64,000 nt of DNA, from NCBI RefSeq assembly GCF_000003815.2, contig NC_049984.1, positions 27,009,424 to 27,073,423 of the forward strand, in the 5' to 3' direction. Below are positions 8,042 to 52,975 of the stretch, one piece after another; the stretch's first letter is position 1, and each line of letters begins with the position of its first letter. The DNA comes from Branchiostoma floridae. Its lineage: Eukaryota > Chordata > Leptocardii > Amphioxiformes > Branchiostomatidae. The position numbers and the translations under genes were made by a program. The notes beneath the pieces were generated by a model. The model was given only the letters and a program-made list of their open reading frames with translations, did not search any database and had not been told where the DNA came from.

Positions 8042-8779
8042 GACCCCGTTCACACTCAAAAAAATGAAGCGGCTTCAACGTCGAAGCCGCTTCAACGTGC
8101 AAGCCGTTTCAAAAAAATTACGTTCACACTCATTACAGACCGATTGACCGCCCACAATGTAAGCCGATTGCGATCTGCCCAGTGTTTCTCTAGCATATCG
8201 CATAGACATCGGGTCATTTCCACTCTTGTTATTATGATCCAGCACCGTCCTGTACCTTGACTTCAGGTTCTTTACTTTCGTTTTGCATTGTTCGGCGGTC
8301 TTCTCAAAACCGCTCGAGATTTCCTCGAAGATGTCCCGCTTTCGGTGCATTTTGCCTAGTTTACTCTGTGTCTCTTCCTGGCCCCACAACCCGATCAGGG
8401 CCTTTGTTTGTTCATGATTCCATTTTCCTTGACTCGACGCCGTCCTTTTCTTGGAAGACATCACTATTAGAAAAAATCGAGCACACTGTCTGGCGTGGCG
8501 TAGCCTTGTGAGGGTTTCGTTTCCCGCGCTACGTTTCGCAACCTATGGACCCGCGTAACCGGATGTACGACCTCCACCAGGGGCAAATCGGAAATTTGCA
8601 TAGAATCTAACCCGCGTTGCGTTCACACTCGCGATTCGAGACAAGCGGCTTGCTCGCAAGTGTCTCAAACTACCTCGCGGGGAAGGATTGTAAACGAGCC
8701 GGATCGGTGTAAATCCAAGCCGCTTGGAGCGTTCACACTCAAGAAAACGATCCTCATTTTTTTGAGTGTGAACGGGGTC
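8042..8779. mobile_element. Complete small PIF/Harbinger-type element with Myb gene
   Basis: The ends are perfect 26-bp terminal inverted repeats (8042-8067 GACCCCGTTCACACTC..., and its exact complement at 8754-8779). They are flanked by a TTA target duplication (8039-8041 and 8780-8782), the TWA-type duplication made by PIF/Harbinger transposases. Extra copies of GTTCACACTC lie inside the ends near 8113, 8620 and 8730, and a short GCGGCTTC hairpin follows the left end. The 738-bp element encodes a Myb/SANT-like protein but no transposase, so it must rely on one supplied elsewhere. Intact ends and gene suggest a fairly recent insertion. Confidence 0.88.
8075..8461 (-). CDS. Myb/SANT-like DNA-binding protein of Harbinger element
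   Basis: A single intact frame of 128 codons starting at ATG 8461 (MSSKKRTASSQGKWN) inside the Harbinger-type element. The core motif is W-x3-Q-T-x-ALIGLWG, then a basic helix, then CKTKVKNLKSRYRTV and DHNNKSG, which is the trihelix Myb/SANT-like pattern of the second gene of PIF/Harbinger transposons. In active members this protein escorts the transposase to the nucleus and binds the ends. That role is inferred from the family. No frameshift or stop is present. Confidence 0.82.
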   Translation of the reverse strand: MSSKKRTASSQGKWNHEQTKALIGLWGQEETQSKLGKMHRKRDIFEEISSGFEKTAEQCKTKVKNLKSRYRTVLDHNNKSGNDPMSMRYARETLGRSQSAYIVGGQSVCNECERNFFETACTLKRLRR

Positions 8780-12449: not shown

Positions 12450-13300
12450 TGCGATGCTGAATGTCTAGAATTGACGAATTGATTTAAGAGGCTCGGCCCT
12501 GGCTTGTTTCAGTAGAATTGGAGCAGTGAGCTAAATGCAGGGAGCGTACAATTGCACGGAGGTTTTGCTTTCAGTATTGGAGGATCATGCTGATTTCCCC
12601 CTGAAGATAGTGCAAACAGTTGCTTGTTGGCTTTGGAGATGGCTGGGAACATTTCCTAAAAGTAAGTGACATGTTTTCCGAGCACGTTAATTTGCACCGG
12701 AACAGACTTTGAGGACACATTTTCGATGAACTCCTCACACTGATTGATGACACTGGGCCGCCATAAACTTGTAGGATCTTTTTCTTTGTTTCTGGTATGT
12801 TATAAGGCATTAACCTGTAGCTTTGCCTGCCTTGTGAGCTATTGGTCTCTTAATCGTCCTGTCTAGGAAAAAGTAAAGTTCGTTTCTTTCTGCTGTATTT
12901 TGTACTGCAAGTTACTAAACAATTACTTTCTGAGCAAATTGCAACATTACATCGTTATCATGATAGTGAAGCAAAAAGTAAATGGCGTTTCTTTCTGCTG
13001 TTCTGCAATAAGAGGAAGTGCTATTGTGTACTATTGTGTCATAGCGTCCATGTGTTCTGGAAGATGCAGCGTTAAGGGCTCCAAAGGATTATGTACCTTG
13101 TACCCGCTTGACGTCAGTCAGATCAACCTTTGTAAGAGTTTTTAAATTCAAAGGCTGAAGGGTTACATGGACACACTCTCAGTGATCTCAAAAAAGACGT
13201 AAAACGAACACACTGAAGAATGTAGACTTATCTGTCTTGATACCCTAATCACTGAAAGGTCCCAGTGTAGCTGCACCAGTTGTATATTAACTTTTTTCCA
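12450..13300. other. No gene confirmed; possible decayed 3' part of family X copy
   Basis: In the direction of the pseudogene at 13303-13600 this stretch would hold the C-terminal half of family X, but the minus-strand frames are broken within a few codons. I could not find its expected FRGNRFN motif here. Confidence 0.3.
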
Positions 13301-13302
13301 TC

Positions 13303-13600
13303 TGCAGCATATTTACCAACAAGTGCATCTTACAGAAGTAATTAGACATTTTCAAGAGCTCATCCCTCACTTCCGTGGTCAAAGTGTCCCAGTTGTCTTT
13401 GACTACGGAAAGGAGTTCCTTTCACAGGTCCTCCAGCTGGCTGTTGAGCAGGGGGTTGGTTGCCTCCCTGTCAGATATGGTACTTCTTAATGATGTAATC
13501 ATCTGCGCTGTTTTCAGCTGGACAACTTCACCGGGTTCACACAGCACCTTGCCAGCTCCCGACAGGACTCCGAGAATAATTCCGTCAGACCTTCGAGATT
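13303..13600 (-). pseudogene. Family X (putative transposase) remnant, copy 1
   Basis: Minus-strand reading gives, in order, SESCRELA, a frameshift, VLCEPGE, KTAQMITSL, SDREATNPLLNSQLEDL, an in-frame TGA, KELLSVVKDNWDTLTTEV and KMSNYFCKMHLLVN. Every block aligns in order with the better copy at 48064-49469 (SDRGATNPLFNEQLQDM, ELLPVVEDNWDSLTDEV, FCKMHLLVN). One frameshift and one stop show it is inactive. It is the same gene family at an unlinked place and on the opposite strand, so it is dispersed. Confidence 0.75.
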
Positions 13601-13789
13601 GCCCTTACCTTCGAGATATGATCAGATGCATAGGGCAGATCCTGTAGGCATTGCCACGATAACTGCATCCAACACCTTCTCAATGTACCCTTGTTTCAAT
13701 CCGCTCTTTATTTGGTACTTCAGGAACCAGAAACTGAGGTGACCAACCTGGCCTTGGGTTCTTTCCTGCTGTTGGGTAGTCAAGTATTC

Positions 13790-15469: not shown

Positions 15470-15960
15470 CCAGGTGTTACTGGATGTGTCTCATATCACA
15501 GTCTTCCTGACCACAGGTCATTACCTTCCTTCCAATACTGAAAGGAAATATCAACCTGAACTTGAAGTGTACCATGCGGCTTTTGTCTGGTCCTTCACAA
15601 TGCTGAACTTACGTGAACCGGTGCGGACGTTCTGGCCCGAGGAGCGGTACCTGCAGCTGTTTCACATGTTACAGGCCCACCATACTTCTGTACCAGCTCC
15701 CATTGTGCTTCTCCCCTGCTTCATTCTGTGCAAAAGTTTTGTTGCATGTTTACTTGCTCTGTAACAGAATTGCCTTGTATTTTGCCGGGTCATCTGTATC
15801 CTGCGCCTCTAGCCAGGCAGAAGTACAGTTGAACTTGAACATTAGCAGCCCTTCTGCCATTCCACTCAAGATCCAGTTCTATCTTTCCAGTTCTATCTAG
15901 ATGCTGAAAGCTAGTGACACTTTGCCTTCAAGCTGAATGCTAGTGAAATGATACTACAAA
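15470..15960. other. No gene confirmed
   Basis: A plus-strand open stretch (about 15600-15720, including TFWPEERYLQLFHML) looks partly protein-like, but it lacks clear splice sites and any family match. Confidence 0.25.
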
Positions 15961-42349: not shown

Positions 42350-43740
42350 GTTTAAACACAGTACAATAATGATGATGAATGTGTTAAGTAACGAAATGTA
42401 AGTAAGTAATGTTCTTTTCTCAGCGTGTTGGTGGCACGCAAAGAAAAAGTAAGTGGTGACGCGGGCATGTCGAAATGCCATGTCCCGGAATTCCCGGAAA
42501 TTCAGTGCTTTCAAAGATTCATTTGGTTGAGAAGTGTCCGATACCTTAAAAGATGTATGCTGCTATAACTTTAAAAAATACTGATTGAAATCTGTGCGAT
42601 TACTAATGGACCGATCTTGAAGCCCCATCCCGTTTGATCATGTCCTATTTCGAACACCTAGTCAAAAACTGCGCTTGTCGGACAGTTTAACTTTCTTTTG
42701 ACCTGAAATGCTCTCAGACCGGGCCGACAAAAATGTGCTGCCTTCTTTGTTTAATTGCTACATCCACTTGATACAATTGTTTGAGGAGGAGGCGGGTATA
42801 GTTGCGGTAAGGTCGTTTTAATTTCAGTCAAAGCGGAAGCGAGAAGCACCGCATAGCATTGCCTTGTTGGTGGGCAGGAGTGCCCGGTTTCTGGCTTGTG
42901 GTCATTACATGTGAAAACCAGGGTACATATATCTGTGACAGGGTTTCTACTGCGTTTGTTGCATGCAAAACAGCTGCATGCATGCTCATGATAAAAACGA
43001 AATCAAGAAAAAAACAGCTCGGGCACTCGTGGAGAGGGAGCTTGTATTACACACCAACTAAAAGGACCCTTCTAGTTGGGTCTGCTAGTGTCGTATACAT
43101 ACCCTGCTCTGCACGTGCATCCTGCCCACCAATGTAATGCTATGCAGTGGCTCTCCCTCCTAAAACAACTATACTTGGTGGGTGTTATCTTCAACAAAGA
43201 ATGGTATAGCAATTTTTATAGCCATTTGTGTCCAATGGGGCTGTTTTTGACAGAGCTGTTCGAAATACGGGGTTCTACCTGATTCTATTTGAGCGATATG
43301 GCGTTCGATCGAGGTCGGTCCATTACTGACATTTACTGCCTGACTCTCCCATGTTTCGAAATTTGAAATATTTTTGTTCATTTCAGTGGAAAGAAGCAAG
43401 AAACTCCAGCTACACTCCGGCAGCTACACTTACCTACACACCACCAGCTAGGCCCAGAAGCTTTATGCTGCTTTATAACTGCTAAATGATGGTTCTGTAG
43501 GAACCAGTGACATCCCTATGGCCCAGTGGAGTCCCTATCAGCACCAGGCCCAACCCCACGCCCAGTACAGGCCAAAACCTGTTTCGGCATCAGTGGGATC
43601 CGGCCTGCAAGCCGTATACCCGCTAAATAGAGAGTTTGCTAACGATTTGCCGTTTTGTTGTGTTACGGTTTAAGAGTTTTGATATTTACTCTATACGAAG
43701 TTGTTGCAACAATACGTCTCTATCTTATTGAAATTAGATA
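42350..43740. other. No gene confirmed; proline-rich exon-like blocks at the end
   Basis: The block after tcatttcag (43387) reads SSYTPAATLTYTPPARPRSF. That after tctgtag (about 43500) reads GTSDIPMAQWSPYQHQ. They could be exons of a proline-rich protein but lack downstream donors. The rest is featureless. Confidence 0.3.
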
Positions 43741-43752
43741 TTTCATTGCAGC

Positions 43753-44216
43753 TTCACAAATATCAATGTAGGCTTTCCAGCAAGTGTACACGATGCCAGA
43801 GTCTTGCGTAATTCTGACGTCAGGCTGTGCTATATGCAACTGCTGAAGGTCAGCTCAGGGAACATATCCAAAGTTGTCCATGCTGTCCTCGACAACCTTC
43901 TGAAGATCAAGGTGAAATTGGAAGACCGTCCGACTTGAGGCAAATCTTGCTGCGTCTATACATGTTGAAGTTGCCTTAAGCTTACTTAAGGCTGGCACGC
44001 TTTACAGTGATGAGACGACCAGTGACGGCAGCAAGGTCTGCAACTTTCAAGCAAATACAGCCAAGTTCAAGACCCAGACAATGGGATGTGTTGAGGTCCC
44101 CGGTGGCGAGTCAGCAGAGCAGTTGAAAGCGTTGGGGTTTGTACTGAAGAAAGTGGCTATACCCACATCTCCTCCTGACGGTACAGACAAGAAAACTAAA
44201 AAGCTGCTGGCACAAG
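43753..44216 (+). pseudogene. Harbinger / family X chimeric fragment
   Basis: A plus-strand frame opens with FTNINVGFPASVHDARVLRN, the motif after the second aspartate of PIF/Harbinger transposases (usually 'VGWPGSVHDARVF'). Without a stop it continues into YMQLLKVSSGNISKVVHAVL, DNLLKIKV, which fits the N-terminal part of family X. After stops and a frame change TLYSDETTSDGSKVCNFQAN, MGCVEVPGGESAEQ resemble the DGTSK...SGDA region of the 48-kb copy. It ends at an AAG|GTAAGA donor. The join of the two families is direct. Confidence 0.6.
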
Positions 44217-44337
44217 GTAAGAAGCTCAAATCTCAAAGATTGGGATCTGCAATGCAAAGTTCTGCAAACACTCAAGGCGATAGCCCGGCAGACCGGAGAG
44301 AAACCGGACAACCATGTTAATGTGTGTTTTTCATGTT

Positions 44338-44441
44338 AGTCAGTGATTTTCGACAGCTTCTTTCTCGCATGATTCCCATTGTTAAGAATATGCAGTGTAA
44401 ATACCGCAATGTGGCCCGCATGCCAACAGGATGCGTCAATG
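44338..44441 (+). CDS. Short exon with good splice sites (unrecognised)
   Basis: Between ttcatgttag and GAG|GTGAGT the frame reads SDFRQLLSRMIPIVKNMQCK then YRNVARMPTGCVNE. Coding-like. It lies just upstream of the endonuclease fragment and may be part of that gene. Confidence 0.4.
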
Positions 44442-44559
44442 AGGTGAGTTTTTTCGCAACTTTTTCATACTTGATACCCTTAGACAAGACAGGGAGAGTA
44501 CAAGGACACATGTTGGGTTAGTTGAAAACCAGTTAATTCAAAGTATACAAGATTTCGGC

Positions 44560-44907
44560 TGTTTTGGTTGGATGGTAGGAATACAAAGAAAGATTTTGGC
44601 TAAAATACGTACAGATCCTGAATCAACATGTTTGCATTGGACAGGAGGGAGGAATCGAAGTCGGCTAGGTCACCCTACGGAGCGATTAACATCTCATGGT
44701 TCCCAAACACGCTTGCCTTTGCATAGAGTGGCTTACATGGGCCACTCTGGCAAGCTACACATTGAGGGAACTCTACAAATCTCTCTTTGTCATGATCCTC
44801 TCTGTGTAACTTGTCAACATCTATCTTTGGAGCCGCAGTCAGTCAACAACGAAAGAATGGTCTGCCGACGCTTTTTTCATTGTCTGGTGACTGTGAACGT
44901 AATTTGA
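44560..44907 (+). CDS. His-Me finger (HNH-like) endonuclease fragment
   Basis: The plus strand reads STCLHWTGGRNRSRLG, then LPLHRVAYMGHSGKL, then ISLCHDPLCVTCQHLSLEPQ and SVNNERMVCR. The order 'C..WTG...YG', 'HR..Y....G', 'SHLCHN.LC.NP.HL.LE....NN.R..C' is the zinc-binding loop region of His-Me finger homing-type endonucleases (Pfam zf-His_Me_endon). The catalytic histidine and zinc-binding Cys/His positions are largely kept, but the 'SHLCH' histidine is changed to SLCH. Such domains occur in transposon-borne genes of invertebrates. It is a single open fragment, without a proven start or end. Confidence 0.62.
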   Translation, partial: CFGWMVGIQRKILAKIRTDPESTCLHWTGGRNRSRLGHPTERLTSHGSQTRLPLHRVAYMGHSGKLHIEGTLQISLCHDPLCVTCQHLSLEPQSVNNERMVCRRFFHCLVTVNVI

Positions 44908-45008
44908 TGTGAGCAAGATAACCAAAACTTTGGTTGAGTAAGTAACTAAATACTGTGCCACCATGGTCAATTTTACTGGCCACTAACATCTTTCTTTTCT
45001 CCAGTTCC

Positions 45009-45382
45009 CTCTTAGGCTCCTTTTCAAAAATGAAACTGATTCTAGAGACCTTGTTGATATCGTTCGGCATATGCAGAGAGATTAAGTGTACTCAACCAAT
45101 AAAGGCACAGGCACAGGTGCGGGCATAAACAGTTGCGAATGTCTTCGGTACGGCTGTTTGTGCCTGAAAATGAATCGTACCCCAAGGCCTGGAAGGGGTT
45201 CACACTTTCTCAAACATGTCAAATCGGAACAAAAGCTACAACAAGTCTGGGAAAGGGGAAGACGGATGGTTGATAAAACAGGTTGTACGTCACGTACTCA
45301 TCTACCTGCAGTACAGGACAACCTGGAGTCAAGAGACAAGATCGCTTACATGATGCAGAGGAACGGCCAGACGCGCCGCTAA
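45009..45382 (+). CDS. Possible exon(s) downstream of the endonuclease
   Basis: After ctttcttttctccag the frame reads FPLRLLFKNETDSRDLVDIV then RHMQRD and a stop (45009-45083). A further frame at 45086-45382 holds SCECLRYGCLCLKMNRTPRP and QRNGQTRR. The cysteine cluster C-x-C-x5-C-x-C is notable but unassigned. Confidence 0.28.
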
Positions 45383-45586
45383 CGGGAAGATAGAAAAAAA
45401 AGGTATGATAAGGTATGGTTTTAGGCGTTTTTGTCGGGCTCTCTATTTTGTAGCCTTTTATCTATATCCGATGACCAAATCTATAACTGTCATGTTCCTA
45501 TTTCTGCGAAATTTGATATTGCTAAAAGAACCGTTCATAACGAGACACAACAATTATAACAAAAACAATCAGGGTGTAAGAAAATC

Positions 45587-46006
45587 GTGAGTCCATGGGT
45601 GCAAAGTAGAAAACAAAAAAACGCATCAAAAACAGTTGGTCTTGTCGATCGCGAGATCTGGTCAGAAAGCCAGCGGAGCAGCCACTGGTGGGACATTGTT
45701 GCACTGCCTACATTCTGTGACCAGGATTGGTACAGCCGATTTCGGCTACGTAGGGGCACTTTTGAACGTCTACTTGAAGAACTGCGACCGACAATTGAGA
45801 GAAAGAACACTCTGATGCGCGACGCCATTAATGCAGAAAAAAGACTTGCCGTCACGCTGTACTGGCTGGTGTCGGGTGACTTGTTTCGCACTGTCGCCGA
45901 TCTTTTTGGCATAAGTGAAGGGTCGGTTTGTCTAACTGTTCATGATGTATGTAAAGCCATCGTGGAAGTTACTGCCCCAGTACATCAATTTTTGTACTCA
46001 AACTGA
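45587..46006 (+). pseudogene. PIF/Harbinger transposase N-terminal half
   Basis: An open frame of 139 codons on the plus strand (first codon GTG, no ATG at the head, so probably an internal exon) contains RSSHWWDIVALPTFCDQDWY, SRFRLRRGTFERLLEELRP, RLAVTLYWLVSGDLFRTVAD and LFGISEGSVCLTVHDVCKAI. These are the N-terminal helices and the helix-turn-helix-like segment typical of HARBI1-like transposases. The DDE core is not found downstream in frame. Thus a truncated element, or the rest lies in exons too decayed to see. Confidence 0.78.
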
Positions 46007-46439
46007 ACAAGAAGACTCTTGATATGTTTTTTACCCTAACACCTGCTATTAGGTGGGTGGCTGGGCGCCTAGAAACGGACAGGAAAGCTGTATGTCCGGG
46101 GTGTCGCAAGTCGTCAATGATCAGACCAATGCTTTTTATCTCAGTCAGTGGATCCTGGATCACTCTTCAACACAATGTTGTACAAATAACATTTTTGTTT
46201 CGTGCAAAATTCAAAGCCATATATGAGTGATTTGAAGTGCACAATTCAGGCCCACCATGTAACATTTACTCTGGAGATCTTGACAAGTTGAAGGCCAGAG
46301 GCATTACTATGGCCTACTAAACATAATGTATGGATAGATTTTTGGCCGTTCTATCTGAAACACATGAGGTACATATAAATGGACCTTTGCAACTATAGTG
46401 TTACTCAGCTTTTCACCTTCCATCGTAAGTCAAACTTCC

Positions 46440-46610
46440 TTCATAAAGGCCGTTTCGATCCCATGAAGCAATTCACCACACCGAGTACGAGGAGGAGGAC
46501 GCCGATTTGGACAAAGACGAGATAGCTAAGGCGATCTCGGCAGCGCTAGTTCTGCTCGGCAACGCAAGCTTCTCTATGTCCCTACAGCGCAGCCCCCTCA
46601 GCATCTGCAT
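46440..46610 (+). pseudogene. DIRS/gag-like scrap (LLGNA motif)
   Basis: The plus strand reads EYEEEDADLDKDEIAKAISA then ALVLLGNASFSMSLQRS. An acidic stretch followed by 'AL.LLGNA...S..RR' is found in the first gene of DIRS-type and related retroelements of invertebrates. A stop follows. Confidence 0.4.
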
Positions 46611-46654
46611 CTGAGAACAGCGCAGCCCTGTCAGCGATCTTATAGAAATGTCTT

Positions 46655-46905
46655 TGTCACTGAATGTTAATGACCATGTTCTTGTAAGATATGGCTGTCT
46701 TGAAATACCAGCTGTAATTGTACGGGTGAGGAAGCTGGACTTGCCGTTAGATACTTTGAAAGTGTTGGTGGTTCAAGTTCAGCGTTGTATTCTGCACAAG
46801 ACCATGAATATGAGGTGCTGAAAGATGATCTCATCAGAAATCTTACAGCACCTACAATGGAGTTACGTGGCACTCGTGTGTACTTTAAGTTTGCTGATGT
46901 ATAGT
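46655..46905 (+). pseudogene. Transposon-type C-terminal domain fragment
   Basis: The plus-strand frames read LNVNDHVLVRYGCLEIPAV, and, after a shift, VRYFESVGGSSSALYSAQ, VLKDDLIRNLTAPTMELRGT and RVYFKFADV with a stop. 'V.YF...G..Y.L.E.D.YDV...DI...L..P.....G.YVF' is a common C-terminal module of uncharacterised transposon-linked proteins. Broken by one frameshift. Confidence 0.4.
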
Positions 46906-46909
46906 CAAA

Positions 46910-47735
46910 TCTGTATATTATTAGACCCTTTGTTCTCCATTGAGTAAACATAATCATTGCTACAATGTATGCATCTGCTATGTCATAGTATGTGTAATAT
47001 GGCATTGATAAGTGTAGTTATAGTATGTTTATCACTAAGACAGTCACATTTCTTTATTTTGTTTTGTAATCATTGCTACAATATGTAAAATCGGCCCCGC
47101 CAATCCAACCCAAGTACCAGTCTATCTCTGAGGATAACAGAGACCGGGAGACCAGAAACTTTTCATAACTGCAGAGGACTCTCTCAGATATCACGAGCAC
47201 GCCCAACAGTGCCGGGAGCAGCAGAAGATGCAGGTGCACACGGGTATCACCACAATGCGAAAAGGACACGGCTTCATGTGGACGTCATTGTCTCTCGCGT
47301 TGTTGCGGCAGGGCGGGTTTGAAAGACAGAATTGTAGCAAGACAAACTTTTATAATCCCACAATACGTCAAAGAAACCAGAACAGGAGGCTTTAAGGGCG
47401 ACTGTATGGGGTATAAATCCAACACTTCTGTGACCATACACTTGTGTCAGTCAGACTGTAAGTGTGCTACCTGAAATACTTTCATCTTGTCATCTTTTGA
47501 AGAAAGGAAGCAAAAAATCCATACTCCTTTCCTCAGTTTAAACCCCAAATCCTGGGAAAAAGAGACCGTCAGAAAATGAGACATGGCGCTCTCAGGTGCT
47601 ACCGTTTAGATATCAGATGTGTTAATTTAAGGCACCTGTCATTCGGTCCTAAAGAGAAACATTCGGTCCAGAGATAAGGGAGGTAAGCATTCCAGACGTG
47701 GGCTCAAGTGAAAAATAGGCGAATACGGCATTAAG
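46910..47735. other. No gene seen
   Basis: AT-rich then mixed sequence, no exon with family resemblance. Confidence 0.4.
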
Positions 47736-47739
47736 TAGT

Positions 47740-47935
47740 GAGTTCGGTGTGTGGACAGACGAGGAGAGACGCGCACACTTGGCTATATTCGCGGGCACAG
47801 AAATCCAGAAGGAGTTTAAAGGATGCAAGTCCCTGACACTGTGCAAGACTGCACTAGATCTGTGGAAATGGTGGCTGACCTCAGCCAACAGGTGTGACAA
47901 CTCAGGTACATCCTGCGCACCCAGTTGTTGCTGAG
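47740..47935 (+). pseudogene. Possible Myb/SANT-like fragment
   Basis: The plus strand reads VWTDEERRAHLAIFAGTEIQ then KEFKGCKS. W-T-D-E-E-x-x-A-x-x-A-I-F/W-x-x-x-x-I-Q fits the first helices of the trihelix Myb/SANT-like domain. The remaining helices are not recognisable. It may be a separate Harbinger scrap or the 5' part of the adjoining family X copy. Confidence 0.35.
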
Positions 47936-48063
47936 TTTTCTGTCTACCATAGAGAGTACGGCAAGCTGTGGGGAGTTTAGTGAAGCTGAGAGTCGAGGCA
48001 CAACTTTCGGAACTACAAAAAAAACAGGTCAAGTCTCTGCAGGACTCAAGGTGAAAGCTTGAG

Positions 48064-49469
48064 TTGAAACTCGAGAAGATGGCAGCCGAGAAAGAGAGAG
48101 TACAAGTTGATCTTGAGGCGACTGTTGAACATTTGACTGAGAAGCTAAAAGATCTCAAAACAGAGAACACTGAGTTGAAGGAAATCCAAGCCCTCATGGA
48201 GACGAAAACTGTCACCTCATTTCAGGATGGAAAGTACAATGACGAGATTAGAGAAGTTGTGATAACTCTGTTGACGTCAGGGGTGTCAATGAGTAAATTT
48301 GATGGCGTCATTCGAACCGCCCTGGAAAGCTTGGCCAACATGACAGTACATCGCCTTCCCAGTCGTGGACTTCAGTCAAGGCTTTTAGTGGAAGCCGATA
48401 TCCTGGCGAAGTGTCAGGTAGCGGAAGCCCTCCTTTCTGGAGAAGAACAGAACAAGAGGAATTGCCTGCATCAAGATGGCACATCGAAATTTTTCAAAAA
48501 ATATCAGACCTTTGACGAGACTCTACCATCTGGAAGGGCACTGACAATGAGTATGTCAGAAATCCCAAGTGGAGACGCCGCTGGTATAACAGCAAGCTTC
48601 AAGGAGTCATGTAGAGAGCTGGCTGAAGTGTTATGCAGTCCTGGTGAGGATGTTGCAAAGAAAACAGCGCAGATTGTGACATCCTTCACAACAACGTCTG
48701 ATCGTGGCGCAACGAACCCACTGTTCAATGAGCAGCTACAAGACATGCGCAGGGAGCTGCTTCCCGTAGTAGAAGACAACTGGGACTCCCTGACAGATGA
48801 AGTTAAAGATGAACTTTCAAAGATGTGCAATTATTACTTTTGCAAGATGCACCTGTTGGTCAACTTTGGTGCAGAGGCTAATAGTACTCTGAAAGTCTTT
48901 GAAGATGCTGTGTCGGAAGGGAAAATCCCCTGGCATTTTCACAGCAGGGAGAGTCGGGTGCTGGAAGGTTAATCAGGACAGCATGTAATGCTTTTACAGA
49001 TCACGGCAACGAGAAGTCAGGTTTCCCGCACTACTTCCAAACGCACATGTTCCATCATTACCATGAAGAAAAGAACCATATGGTTACCTTTCGTGGGAAC
49101 AGATTCAACATAATCTTCTACAACGGTGCAGCAGTCTACCCTCACCACAAGCACATCACAAGCTTTGTGTCCTCTTGGCCAGACCCGAATGGCCTGTTGA
49201 AAGCCGTGAAGGCTGATGCCAAACAAAAAGTCTACCTTGCTGGGGTTCGCGCCTTATTAGGAATACTGGACAAGACAGTGACAGGGCCAGTCTTCCGCTT
49301 ACTTGGGTTGGTGAAAGCAGTGCTGGACATAAGCGTTCATCTGCATCAAATGCAGCTGTCCCTGGATTCAGCACAGACCCACAGATCCTTCCATGACATT
49401 ATGGACACCGTGACGGCCAGGAAACCACCACCCTACTATCAAACAGTGATGGCTGGCAAACATCACTAA
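48064..49469 (+). pseudogene. Family X putative transposase, best copy (one frameshift)
   Basis: Two plus-strand frames (48064-48972 and frame -1 from about 48945 to 49469) form a nearly complete protein of about 450 residues. An N-terminal coiled coil starts at ATG 48079, though coding-like sequence extends upstream across a TGA at 48051. The core contains HRLPSRGLQSRL, QDGTSKFFKKYQTFDE, ITASFKESCRELAEVL, SDRGATNPLFNEQLQDM and YFCKMHLLVNFG. After the shift come RLIRTACNAFTDHGNEKSG, VTFRGNRFNIIFYNGAAVYP and VKAVLDISVHLHQMQLSLDS. I know proteins of this design from many marine invertebrate genomes as uncharacterised multi-copy genes. Conserved D (DGTSK), D (SDR) and H/E positions suggest a DDE-like nuclease, but this is inference. 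Confidence 0.7.
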
Positions 49470-49474
49470 GGTCT

Positions 49475-50270
49475 GCTCTATGTCTGTCAGTGTTCAATTA
49501 CTTGTACCAAGGAGATTTACAAATAGTTTTACTTTGGGCCTACACTTATGTCTATTCTTTTTGTTCCACAGCGATTAGGGAATTTACGAATATGTATTGT
49601 TATGCTATGATGACACAGTCAATGTTTTCGTTAAGTCTAGGAAATTTCATGTACAACGAAATAACCTCCTTGGTATTGTATGATAGATGTCATATGCTAT
49701 GATCACACAGAACATGGTTAAGATAACAACATTTCTGTAACATGATTTTTTTTAATACAACAATGTAGCAAATACAGATTAAGGCCTTTTGAAAGCTATA
49801 TACATGTGGCATTCCTGCTTTAAACGGTTGAAGAAACTTAAATACTGGAATTGCGATGTAGCATTGCAGTCATACAACCACATCACCAACAGATATTACA
49901 CCACTTTATCGAACAAAAGCAAGGCTCAACTTCCTGCATGACAACTGTAGGAGAATGGCAATTCCATTCATCAGTGGACAATCAAGATGTGATAGAACAA
50001 GTGACTGTATCACAGTTTTTAATATATCTCCGGGAAAGAAGGTTTTGTATTTTCTTAATGAGTACCAGCCATTTTAGTCCCAGGATAGATGCTGGTCAAC
50101 TGTGAAGCAGCAAGACTGCTTGTCTTACTTGTATGATGTTCCTGCCTCCCACACTTAGCTTAATATTTCCAAATTTATGGGAATAATATACTTATAGGAA
50201 GCCACCACAAACTGCACAACCCTGAATTAAGGCTGTCTCTAGACATCAAATCCTTTCTCCGTCGTTACTT
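49475..50270. other. No gene seen
   Basis: AT-rich sequence between the family X copy and the next exon. Confidence 0.45.
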
Positions 50271-50273
50271 TTC

Positions 50274-50583
50274 AGGGGATGAGGAGTGGCAGTTCTTAAA
50301 AGTTGTAGGGAACAACAACCTGCAGCCTATCTTCGGACGGGTGGAGCCAGGAGACTACTGGAGCTGGCATCACGGCCAACACTAATGTCAACATTAGGAG
50401 GTGCAGCCCCTGGCACAGCCCCAACCGCCTACCCAGGGACAGCCCCAGGCACAGCCCCTGGAGGCACAGCCCCAGCCCCCCACCCAGGGACAGCCCCCGG
50501 CACATGATGGAGAGTCAACAGATGAGGCAGGGAAGGCAGAGATGACGAAGGCGAAGAAGAAGATGACGAGCAGGAGAGACAGG
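50274..50583 (+). CDS. Exon(s) with PQ-rich repeats (unrecognised gene)
   Basis: After ttacttttcag the frame reads DEEWQFLKVVGNNNLQPIFG then EPGDYWSWHHG and hits a stop. The next frame from about 50400 reads QPLAQPQPPTQGQPQAQPLE in degenerate repeats, then DEAGKAEMTKAKKKMTSRRD to a GTATGT donor within GAGACAGGGTATGT. The stop between the parts means a frameshift, or two exons with an unseen short intron. Confidence 0.35.
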
Positions 50584-50785
50584 GTATGTACATTTACCTT
50601 CTTGCATGTAGTGAAGGAAGAGATAAGAATTAAAATTAACGGGTGGGGGATTGTTCATGTCCACATTTTTGAGCAGCTTCTTTCTCTTTCAAGTATTGCA
50701 CTCAGACTAAATTTGAAATTAAAAAAAGTCAGATATGAAAACAAAGGCTTTGAAAGAAGTTTTGCCTTGCTGCAATATCTTGTTG

Positions 50786-51152
50786 GGCACAACCCAGTTT
50801 CAACCTCAAGGTAAGCAGCTTGCTACTTAGTTTCGGAGACAGTGTCTTGCAGGTGCACTGTCGCCCTGTGCACTAAGAATTAAAATCAACTTAGTAACAC
50901 CCAGCCTGAGTATCAGCCTGTCTAATTTTTCGAATACCTACTAATGTTACCCAATTTGTATGGGAATCTCCAAGCAGATCTTGCAGATCACAAGATAGTA
51001 TCAAACTGACCAAGGAGTGTAGCCAGCTAAAGGGGTGTACATCAACCAGCCAAGGGATGTACCCTTGGCTGGCTACACTCCAGGCCTGCACAACACTGTC
51101 TCAGAAACTAAGTAGCATGCTGCTTACCTTGAGGTTGAAGATGGGTTGTGCC
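50786..51152. mobile_element. Foldback MITE with ~60-bp terminal inverted repeats
   Basis: GGCACAACCCAGTTTCAACC-TCAAGGTAAGCAGC...TACTTAGTTTC at 50786-50853 is matched, inverted and about 90 % identical, at 51091-51152. The interior holds a second hairpin, CCAGCCAAGGG-ATGTA-CCCTTGGCTGG at about 51037-51064, nested in GGAGTGTAGCC/GGCTACACTCC. Confidence 0.8.
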
Positions 51153-51241
51153 AAGACGGAACCCTAGTAAAATAATTACAGCCTAGTCCTACGGGCAATG
51201 TATCCCCCTTTGCTTAACATTCCTTTTTTTATGCTACTCAG

Positions 51242-51479
51242 CTATTCAAGTCCAGGCTGCGTGTCGCGCTGGAGCTGCTCAATGAGGAGGAGTATGGAGT
51301 TCTTCCAACACTCAGGACCAATGTACATGTCGGACGAAGAAAATGACGAGGAAGACAAGACGGTCGTCTGGGTAAAACCACCTCAGTGGCGGGCACCCAG
51401 ACTGACCGACATGGTGTTAAGGTGCCACTTCCAATCATGGAGGCAGCAGGAGGCTCGAGGGGCATCAGGCACCCATGGT
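51242..51479 (+). pseudogene. Exon of transposon-linked gene, frameshifted
   Basis: After atgctactcag the frame reads LFKSRLRVALELLNEEEYGV and then a stop. One base over it reads PMYMSDEENDEEDKTVVWVK then PPQWRAPRLTDMVLRC. An acidic 'YMSDEE.DEED' followed by 'VK...WRS.RL' is a module of many uncharacterised invertebrate transposon-linked proteins. One frameshift lies near 51300. The 3' part (51420-51650) is duplicated at 52740-52975. Confidence 0.45.
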
Positions 51480-51650
51480 AATCCCTTCCAAAGCTCAGTC
51501 ATACAGATGAAGCACAGAAGAAATGCAGGAGAAACACACCAGGCAAAAGAAGAGCTATTTCCTGTGTGTATCTTGCTTTTTTTCCCCAGTCAGAGAGCTT
51601 CTAATGTTTGTTTAAGAGGACATACAACGGACAACTTTCCTTCTTAGTCA
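51420..51650 (+). repeat. ~225-bp duplication (pair with 52740-52975)
   Basis: From TGCCACTTCCAATCATGGAG to ACGGACAACTTTCCTT the two blocks are almost identical, differing at a handful of bases. The duplication includes the exon with GGSRGIRHP and its CATG|GTAATC donor. Confidence 0.88.
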
Positions 51651-52719: not shown

Positions 52720-52800
52720 CATGCAAGACCTCGCCACTTCCAACTCCGCCACTTCCAATCATGGAGGCAGCAGGAGGCTCGAGGGGCATCAGGCACCCAT
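52720..52800 (+). CDS. Cassette exon PCKTSPLP (paralogue of 41897-41957)
   Basis: Between cttgtctag and CATG|GTAATC, in phase 0 with the preceding STGAKK exon, encoding PCKTSPLPTPPLPIMEAAGG then SRGIRHPW. Confidence 0.5.
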
Positions 52801-52975
52801 GGTAATCCCTTCCAAAGCTCAGTCATACAGATGAAGCACAGAAGAAATGCAGGAGAAACACACCAGGCAAAAGAAGAGCTATTTCCTGTGTGTATCTTGC
52901 CTTTTTTCCCCAGTCAGAGAGCTTCTAATGTTTGTTTAAGAGGACATACAACGGACAACTTTCCTTTTCGCCAAT
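52740..52975 (+). repeat. ~225-bp duplication (pair with 51420-51650)
   Basis: Second copy of the block described at 51420-51650. The breakpoint on the left falls inside the exon at CCACTTCCAA, a string that is itself repeated twice here (52732 and 52748). Confidence 0.85.

Follow-up and report, generated by a model that had tools for sequence, protein, structure and literature searches.

A 64,000-nucleotide stretch of the Branchiostoma floridae genome (C6:27009424–27073423 of the 513-Mb assembly; hereafter the window) carries pieces of a multi-copy protein family, here called family X, which very probably are the dead remains of a lineage of cut-and-paste DNA transposons whose transposase is hAT-like but divergent. 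We establish that family X is a mobile element, found as dispersed, near-identical elements of 5.7–6.6 kb with inverted termini starting TAG and mostly 7-bp target duplications, and that elsewhere in the same genome there are near-identical copies that moved recently and have kept their reading frames intact. The copies in the window are themselves non-functional relics. An initial annotation, made from the letters of the window alone, had noted transposase-like features and knew such proteins only as 'uncharacterised'; the family can now be placed as hAT-like.

Full-length elements and their ends

A genome search with the window protein gave 39 matches, some of them diverged (26–36% identity) and sitting in open reading frames (ORFs) of about 900–1360 amino acids (aa) on C1, C7, C10, C11, C13 and C18; one match locus on C7, L048, is broken in two. 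Four loci (L039, L040, L041 and L043) form a first group with abrupt ends and mutual identities of 96.7–99.6% over most of 5.7–6.6 kb, the 5' part falling to 81–84% in some pairs. The ORFs of L039, L041 and L043 are 1042, 1008 and 1042 aa long, and the L040 piece contains 1370 masked bases. The 5' ends of this group read TAGC[TG]AGCGCAATT and the 3' ends, reverse-complemented, TAGCTAGCACAGG; exact 7-bp repeats flank L039 (CATATAT), L040 (GCAAAAA) and L041 (ACTACTG), and no flanking repeat was found at L043, whose 3' end includes an N. The diverged loci L042, L044 and L045 (52–53% core identity to L045) measure 6.1–6.3 kb, read TAGGGGT at both ends and are flanked by the 7-bp repeats TTATTTC, CTTAAAA and TTCATAG, respectively. 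Since a terminus of at least 7 together with a 7-bp repeat arose in 2–8 of 60 shuffled-DNA trials per locus, a single locus proves little; the same terminus in three diverged loci does carry proof.

Both ends were read in five further first-group elements: 7-bp repeats flank those at C8:9.17 Mb (ctgatac) and C1:27.52 Mb (tataact), an 8-bp repeat (ctatatag) flanks that at C18:13.21 Mb, and those at C9:15.54 Mb and C8:4.67 Mb have no adjacent flanking repeat. Over 12 elements the target duplication is 7 bp in eight, 8 bp in one and absent in three, and its sequence varies from copy to copy. No convincing ends were found around L046, L047 or L048. The family-X element L052 (C1:27.52–27.53 Mb) has both its ends and is flanked by a 7-bp repeat; of the 9901 bases retrieved for this locus, 5610 are N. 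At C4:10.623–10.645 Mb, a 5' terminus match (10644566–10644916) and a 3' end (10623295) lie 21.6 kb apart and make up one possible element, which may hold an insertion.

Dispersal is evident from the 3' 702 bp of L041, which gave 28 genome matches (second matches within the same elements counted), 12 of them long and 90–100% identical, on C1 (three), C4, C7, C8, C9, C10, C12, C13 and C18 (two); the 5' 563 bp gave 17. The ratio of nonsynonymous to synonymous substitution rates is 0.20–0.27 in four near-identical ORF pairs (14–76 differences per pair), three diverged pairs being saturated, and such ratios suggest that the protein was under selection until recently. The initial annotation had taken the family for a mobile element and had advised a search for terminal repeats and target duplications. 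Full-length relatives with ends and target duplications (L039–L042, L044 and L045) and dispersed copies bear this out; the dispersal of the copies in the window, on which that reading had leaned, does not, since their best pair is a segmental duplication.

The transposase and its affinities

The elements carry a single long ORF of about 1000–1350 aa, whose N-terminal part holds a coiled coil and in which D, D, CxxH, R and E residues are conserved; D, D and E are invariant in six aligned cores, as are C209 and H212 (the CxxH after the second D). In structure prediction, the best match of the full core was the hAT transposase Hermes, clear of the other rows, and this predicted Hermes-like fold with an RNase-H core is in agreement with the nuclease fold initially proposed and with the structural check then recommended. 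For the window fragment modelled by itself, Hermes again ranks first, though level with retroviral integrases, and in the predicted model the confidence score (predicted local distance difference test) is below 50 around the second D and the E, so the residues placed in the active site are candidates. Pfam, another of the checks recommended, was run on the window pieces, nine ORFs and six cores and matched no transposase model, nor did sequence searches of the PDB find a transposase. The ORF C-termini of L042, L044 and L045 share VVVAYEDDW ... FWP ... YYNxYFA after long acidic repeats, a feature not seen in L039, L046 or L047.

For comparison with hAT, six of 33 genome hAT matches were chosen by open-frame length and five kept, two of them 69% identical; the sixth, L074, yielded no hAT ORF, was part of the first comparison and was dropped before the second. 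With L074 included, the first profile comparison gave E 0.029 and a probability of 1.7%, and a global alignment aligned nothing useful. With hhalign, both D residues pair with those of the hAT proteins in the default alignment and the E in the extended alignment, and the family-X CxxH aligns with the hAT CxxH. The likeness to hAT consists of D, D, CxxH and E in register (the Hermes catalytic residues are D180, D248 and E572), a Hermes-like predicted fold, a cut-and-paste element and terminal inverted repeats starting TAG, some of which fit the hAT pattern given below. In contrast, the RW motif (Hermes R318, W319) is not clearly present: the family-X GNRFN block has R followed by F or C, and hhalign sets the hAT RW against a different family-X stretch, in which W is present in some members.

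Two results weigh against the assignment to hAT. The hAT dimerisation domain (PF05699) had no match in nine ORFs at E ≤0.1, nor in six cores at E ≤10, a search in which the filters discard most matches above 0.1. A BED zinc finger, which is usual though not universal in hAT, was not found in the nine ORFs at E ≤0.1 either, a coiled-coil-like N-terminus standing there instead. An N-terminal BED zinc finger is named for hAT in PMC6027215 (cited, like the papers below, from an excerpt), as is the terminus [T/C]A[A/G]NG; TAGGG (both ends of L042, L044 and L045) and the TAGCG 5' ends fit this pattern, but TAGCT and TAGCC ends do not. Since the Pfam hAT model and the BED finger were looked for and not found, we name family X hAT-like and not a proven member of hAT, from which it also differs in its long N-terminal coiled coil and in target duplications of mostly 7 bp where hAT usually has 8. 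Duplications of other lengths do occur within hAT: the excerpt of PMC12730594 describes hAT5, hAT6 and hAT7 groups with 5, 6 and 7 bp, and the hAT7 of Puccinia, in a group placed there with fungal and plant hAT, shares the 7-bp duplication with family X.

The absence of Pfam hAT and BED matches, the 7-bp duplications, the long coiled-coil N-terminus and the weak profile similarity to hAT may also be read as signs of a separate DDE superfamily, related to hAT but outside it (as has been said of Dada and P) and meriting its own name. We regard this as possible but somewhat doubtful, considering that the two D residues, CxxH and E pair with their hAT counterparts, that the Hermes match of the long model is clear of the other matches listed, and that duplications of 5, 6 and 7 bp are on record for hAT groups (PMC12730594, excerpt). 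Equally tentative is the proposal that family X is an unnamed superfamily of animal DNA transposons, the sister group of hAT, which integrates with a 7-bp stagger of its own, has an N-terminal coiled coil instead of the zinc finger and is still mobile here. Dada itself is described, in the excerpt of PMC3706591, as a DDE group with a DxxH (or CxxH) motif and 6–7-bp duplications, which recalls the DDE with CxxH and the mostly 7-bp duplications of family X; however, Dada-U6 and Dada-U1 have no inverted repeats at their ends and Dada inserts into small RNA genes, whereas the termini of family X are short inverted repeats and its target duplications differ from copy to copy. Fungal IS3EU also has termini starting TA, but with 6-bp duplications and terminal inverted repeats of >30 bp ending TAYGG (PMC12730594, excerpt), against mostly 7 bp and TAGGG/TAGC in family X.

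It is very improbable that family X is a Galileo-like transposon of the P superfamily. Members of that superfamily have a THAP domain and a P-type RNase-H/GTP-binding insertion, and neither THAP nor a P-type domain was matched by Pfam in the nine ORFs and six cores; Hermes heads the structure lists, and neither P-element nor KDZ structures are among the best 50 structure matches, which excludes nothing. What family X does share with Galileo is the 7-bp duplication (PMC2775673, excerpt). No name for family X appears among the literature matches listed, Repbase and Dfam themselves lying outside the search, and 28 pattern matches for relatives on viral contigs yielded none that was confirmed.

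Remnants in the window and the pile-up on C6

Six-frame fragments of the window were searched with a hidden Markov model (HMM) of 1129 positions, made from eight ORF pieces of seven loci outside the window; two window pieces were included in the alignment and taken out again before the model was built. The HMM E values (Table 1) indicate that the pieces are family-X matches and not chance; the three places initially assigned to one family all match, and a fourth is added on the minus strand.

Table 1. Family-X remnants and the duplicated segment in the window
Feature	Position	Strand	Details
Best remnant, N-terminal part	48055..48969	+	305 aa, frame 1; HMM E 3e-60
Best remnant, next part	48903..49466	+	188 aa, frame 3; HMM E 3.1e-44, model positions 574-718 of 1129
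Fragment of another copy	43738..44317	+	Two frames; HMM E 4.2e-10 (43738-43935) and 2.3e-15 (43916-44317)
Decayed fragment, near the 48-kb copy in sequence	13290..13654	-	tblastn E 1.2e-30, 66% identity over 83 aa
Short C-terminal fragment, past the conserved E	15753..15878	-	HMM E 1.6e-6, model 833-863
Duplicated segment holding the 48-kb remnant	43882..51427		Inverted counterpart at C6:25.90-25.91 Mb

The first part of the 48-kb copy covers the end of the coiled coil, a helical region and the RNase-H core, with the first D at about 48475 (DGTSK), the second at about 48700 (TSDRG) and C-x-x-H at about 48841–48852; the second part has the GNRFN block followed by a helical region and stops short of the conserved E. 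The ORF pair translates as the initial annotation had given it and contains the blocks named there: DGTSK, SCRELA, SDRGATNP, ELLPVVEDNWDSLT, FCKMHLLVN and FRGNRFN. The view of this copy as one frameshift from complete is not sustained: only positions 275–718 of 1129 are spanned, with a frame change besides, and the HMM search did not recover most of the N-terminal part or the C-terminal third, where the conserved E lies. Likewise, the same blocks in the same order had been claimed for all three places, which holds at 48 kb, but the 43.8-kb fragment comprises only the helical region and the surroundings of the first D (worded YSDETTSD there), without the blocks from SCRELA to FCKMHLLVN. At 13.3–13.65 kb SCRELA, SDR, DNWD and FCKMHLLVN are present, but not all in one frame and interrupted by stops (HMM match at 13290–13421(-), E 1.8e-9). 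At 43738–43935 (+), VGFPASVHDARVLRNS, which we take to recall the Harbinger nuclease motif, precedes the family-X fragment in the same frame, perhaps as nested remnants.

A copy at C6:25.91 Mb, also split into two parts in different frames, is 99% identical to the 48-kb copy over 1259 of 1406 bases. Transposition was rejected as the source of this best pair because similarity continues past the ORF on both sides, over >7.5 kb (93.9–98.4% identity in blocks), as an inverted segmental duplication; moreover, a search around the 48-kb copy gave no convincing terminal repeats flanked by a target duplication. Identical 219-bp direct repeats lie at 51424–51642 and 52748–52966 of the window, 1324 bp apart.

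The window protein had 39 matches in the genome and L045 had 75; merging those within 10 kb of each other leaves 65 loci. These counts are lower bounds, and in the L045 search 79 of 102 candidates were scored. Within C6 19.5–28.09 Mb, the final 8.6 Mb of that chromosome and 1.7% of the assembly (bounds chosen after the data were seen), lie 42 of the 65, as do 11 of 29 merged loci of ordinary hAT, the sole control family; relative to hAT, family X is modestly over-represented (Fisher p 0.024). This clustering, together with the multiplication of the window and C6:25.91 Mb copies via segmental duplication, is what a host gene family (a domesticated transposase, decaying on C6) and not an active transposon lineage would have in its favour. 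However, what lies on C6 is a set of short, often stop-bearing fragments that are kin to several subfamilies; intact ORFs lie in dispersed, near-identical, inverted-repeat-bounded elements on other contigs; only two of the 28 L041-type 3' ends are on C6 as a whole, with no such excess; and ordinary hAT is likewise enriched in this part of C6. The host-gene explanation is already contradicted for family X overall, and we give it hardly any weight. Since hAT shares the enrichment and L041-type ends are not in excess, this part of C6 is probably a zone in which debris of hAT-type transposons collects, the number of loci being raised further by segmental duplication.

Other features were seen in the window. 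Remnants at 45560–46003 (+) and 8078–8542 (-) may be PIF/Harbinger, with matches to HTH_Tnp_4 (E 0.0013, below the cut-off) and to a Myb/SANT-like domain (E 1.5e-14), and repetitive open frames encoding short repeated peptides in several frames, minisatellite-like, occur at 15.9–16.7, 28.3–29.0, 31.3–32.0 and 39.5–40.2 kb.

Possible mechanism and significance

Considering family X as a cut-and-paste lineage with a hAT-like enzyme, and by analogy with the hAT family, we suggest that the transposases would bind the element ends, that the RNase-H core would hold two metal ions through D, D and E, and that the element would be cut out at both ends by the hAT route. Its 3' ends would then attack the target strands 7 bp apart, repair giving the 7-bp repeats, and the coiled coil may serve multimerisation.

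An 'uncharacterised' protein family, invisible to Pfam, thereby becomes a transposon lineage with defined ends, a target duplication, candidate catalytic residues and a predicted fold, and the near-identical copies with intact ORFs make its activity directly testable. The known range of hAT-like enzymes would widen to include a coiled-coil N-terminus and a 7-bp stagger. In addition, the pile-up of dead copies at one chromosome end raises the question of how such regions gather transposon debris.
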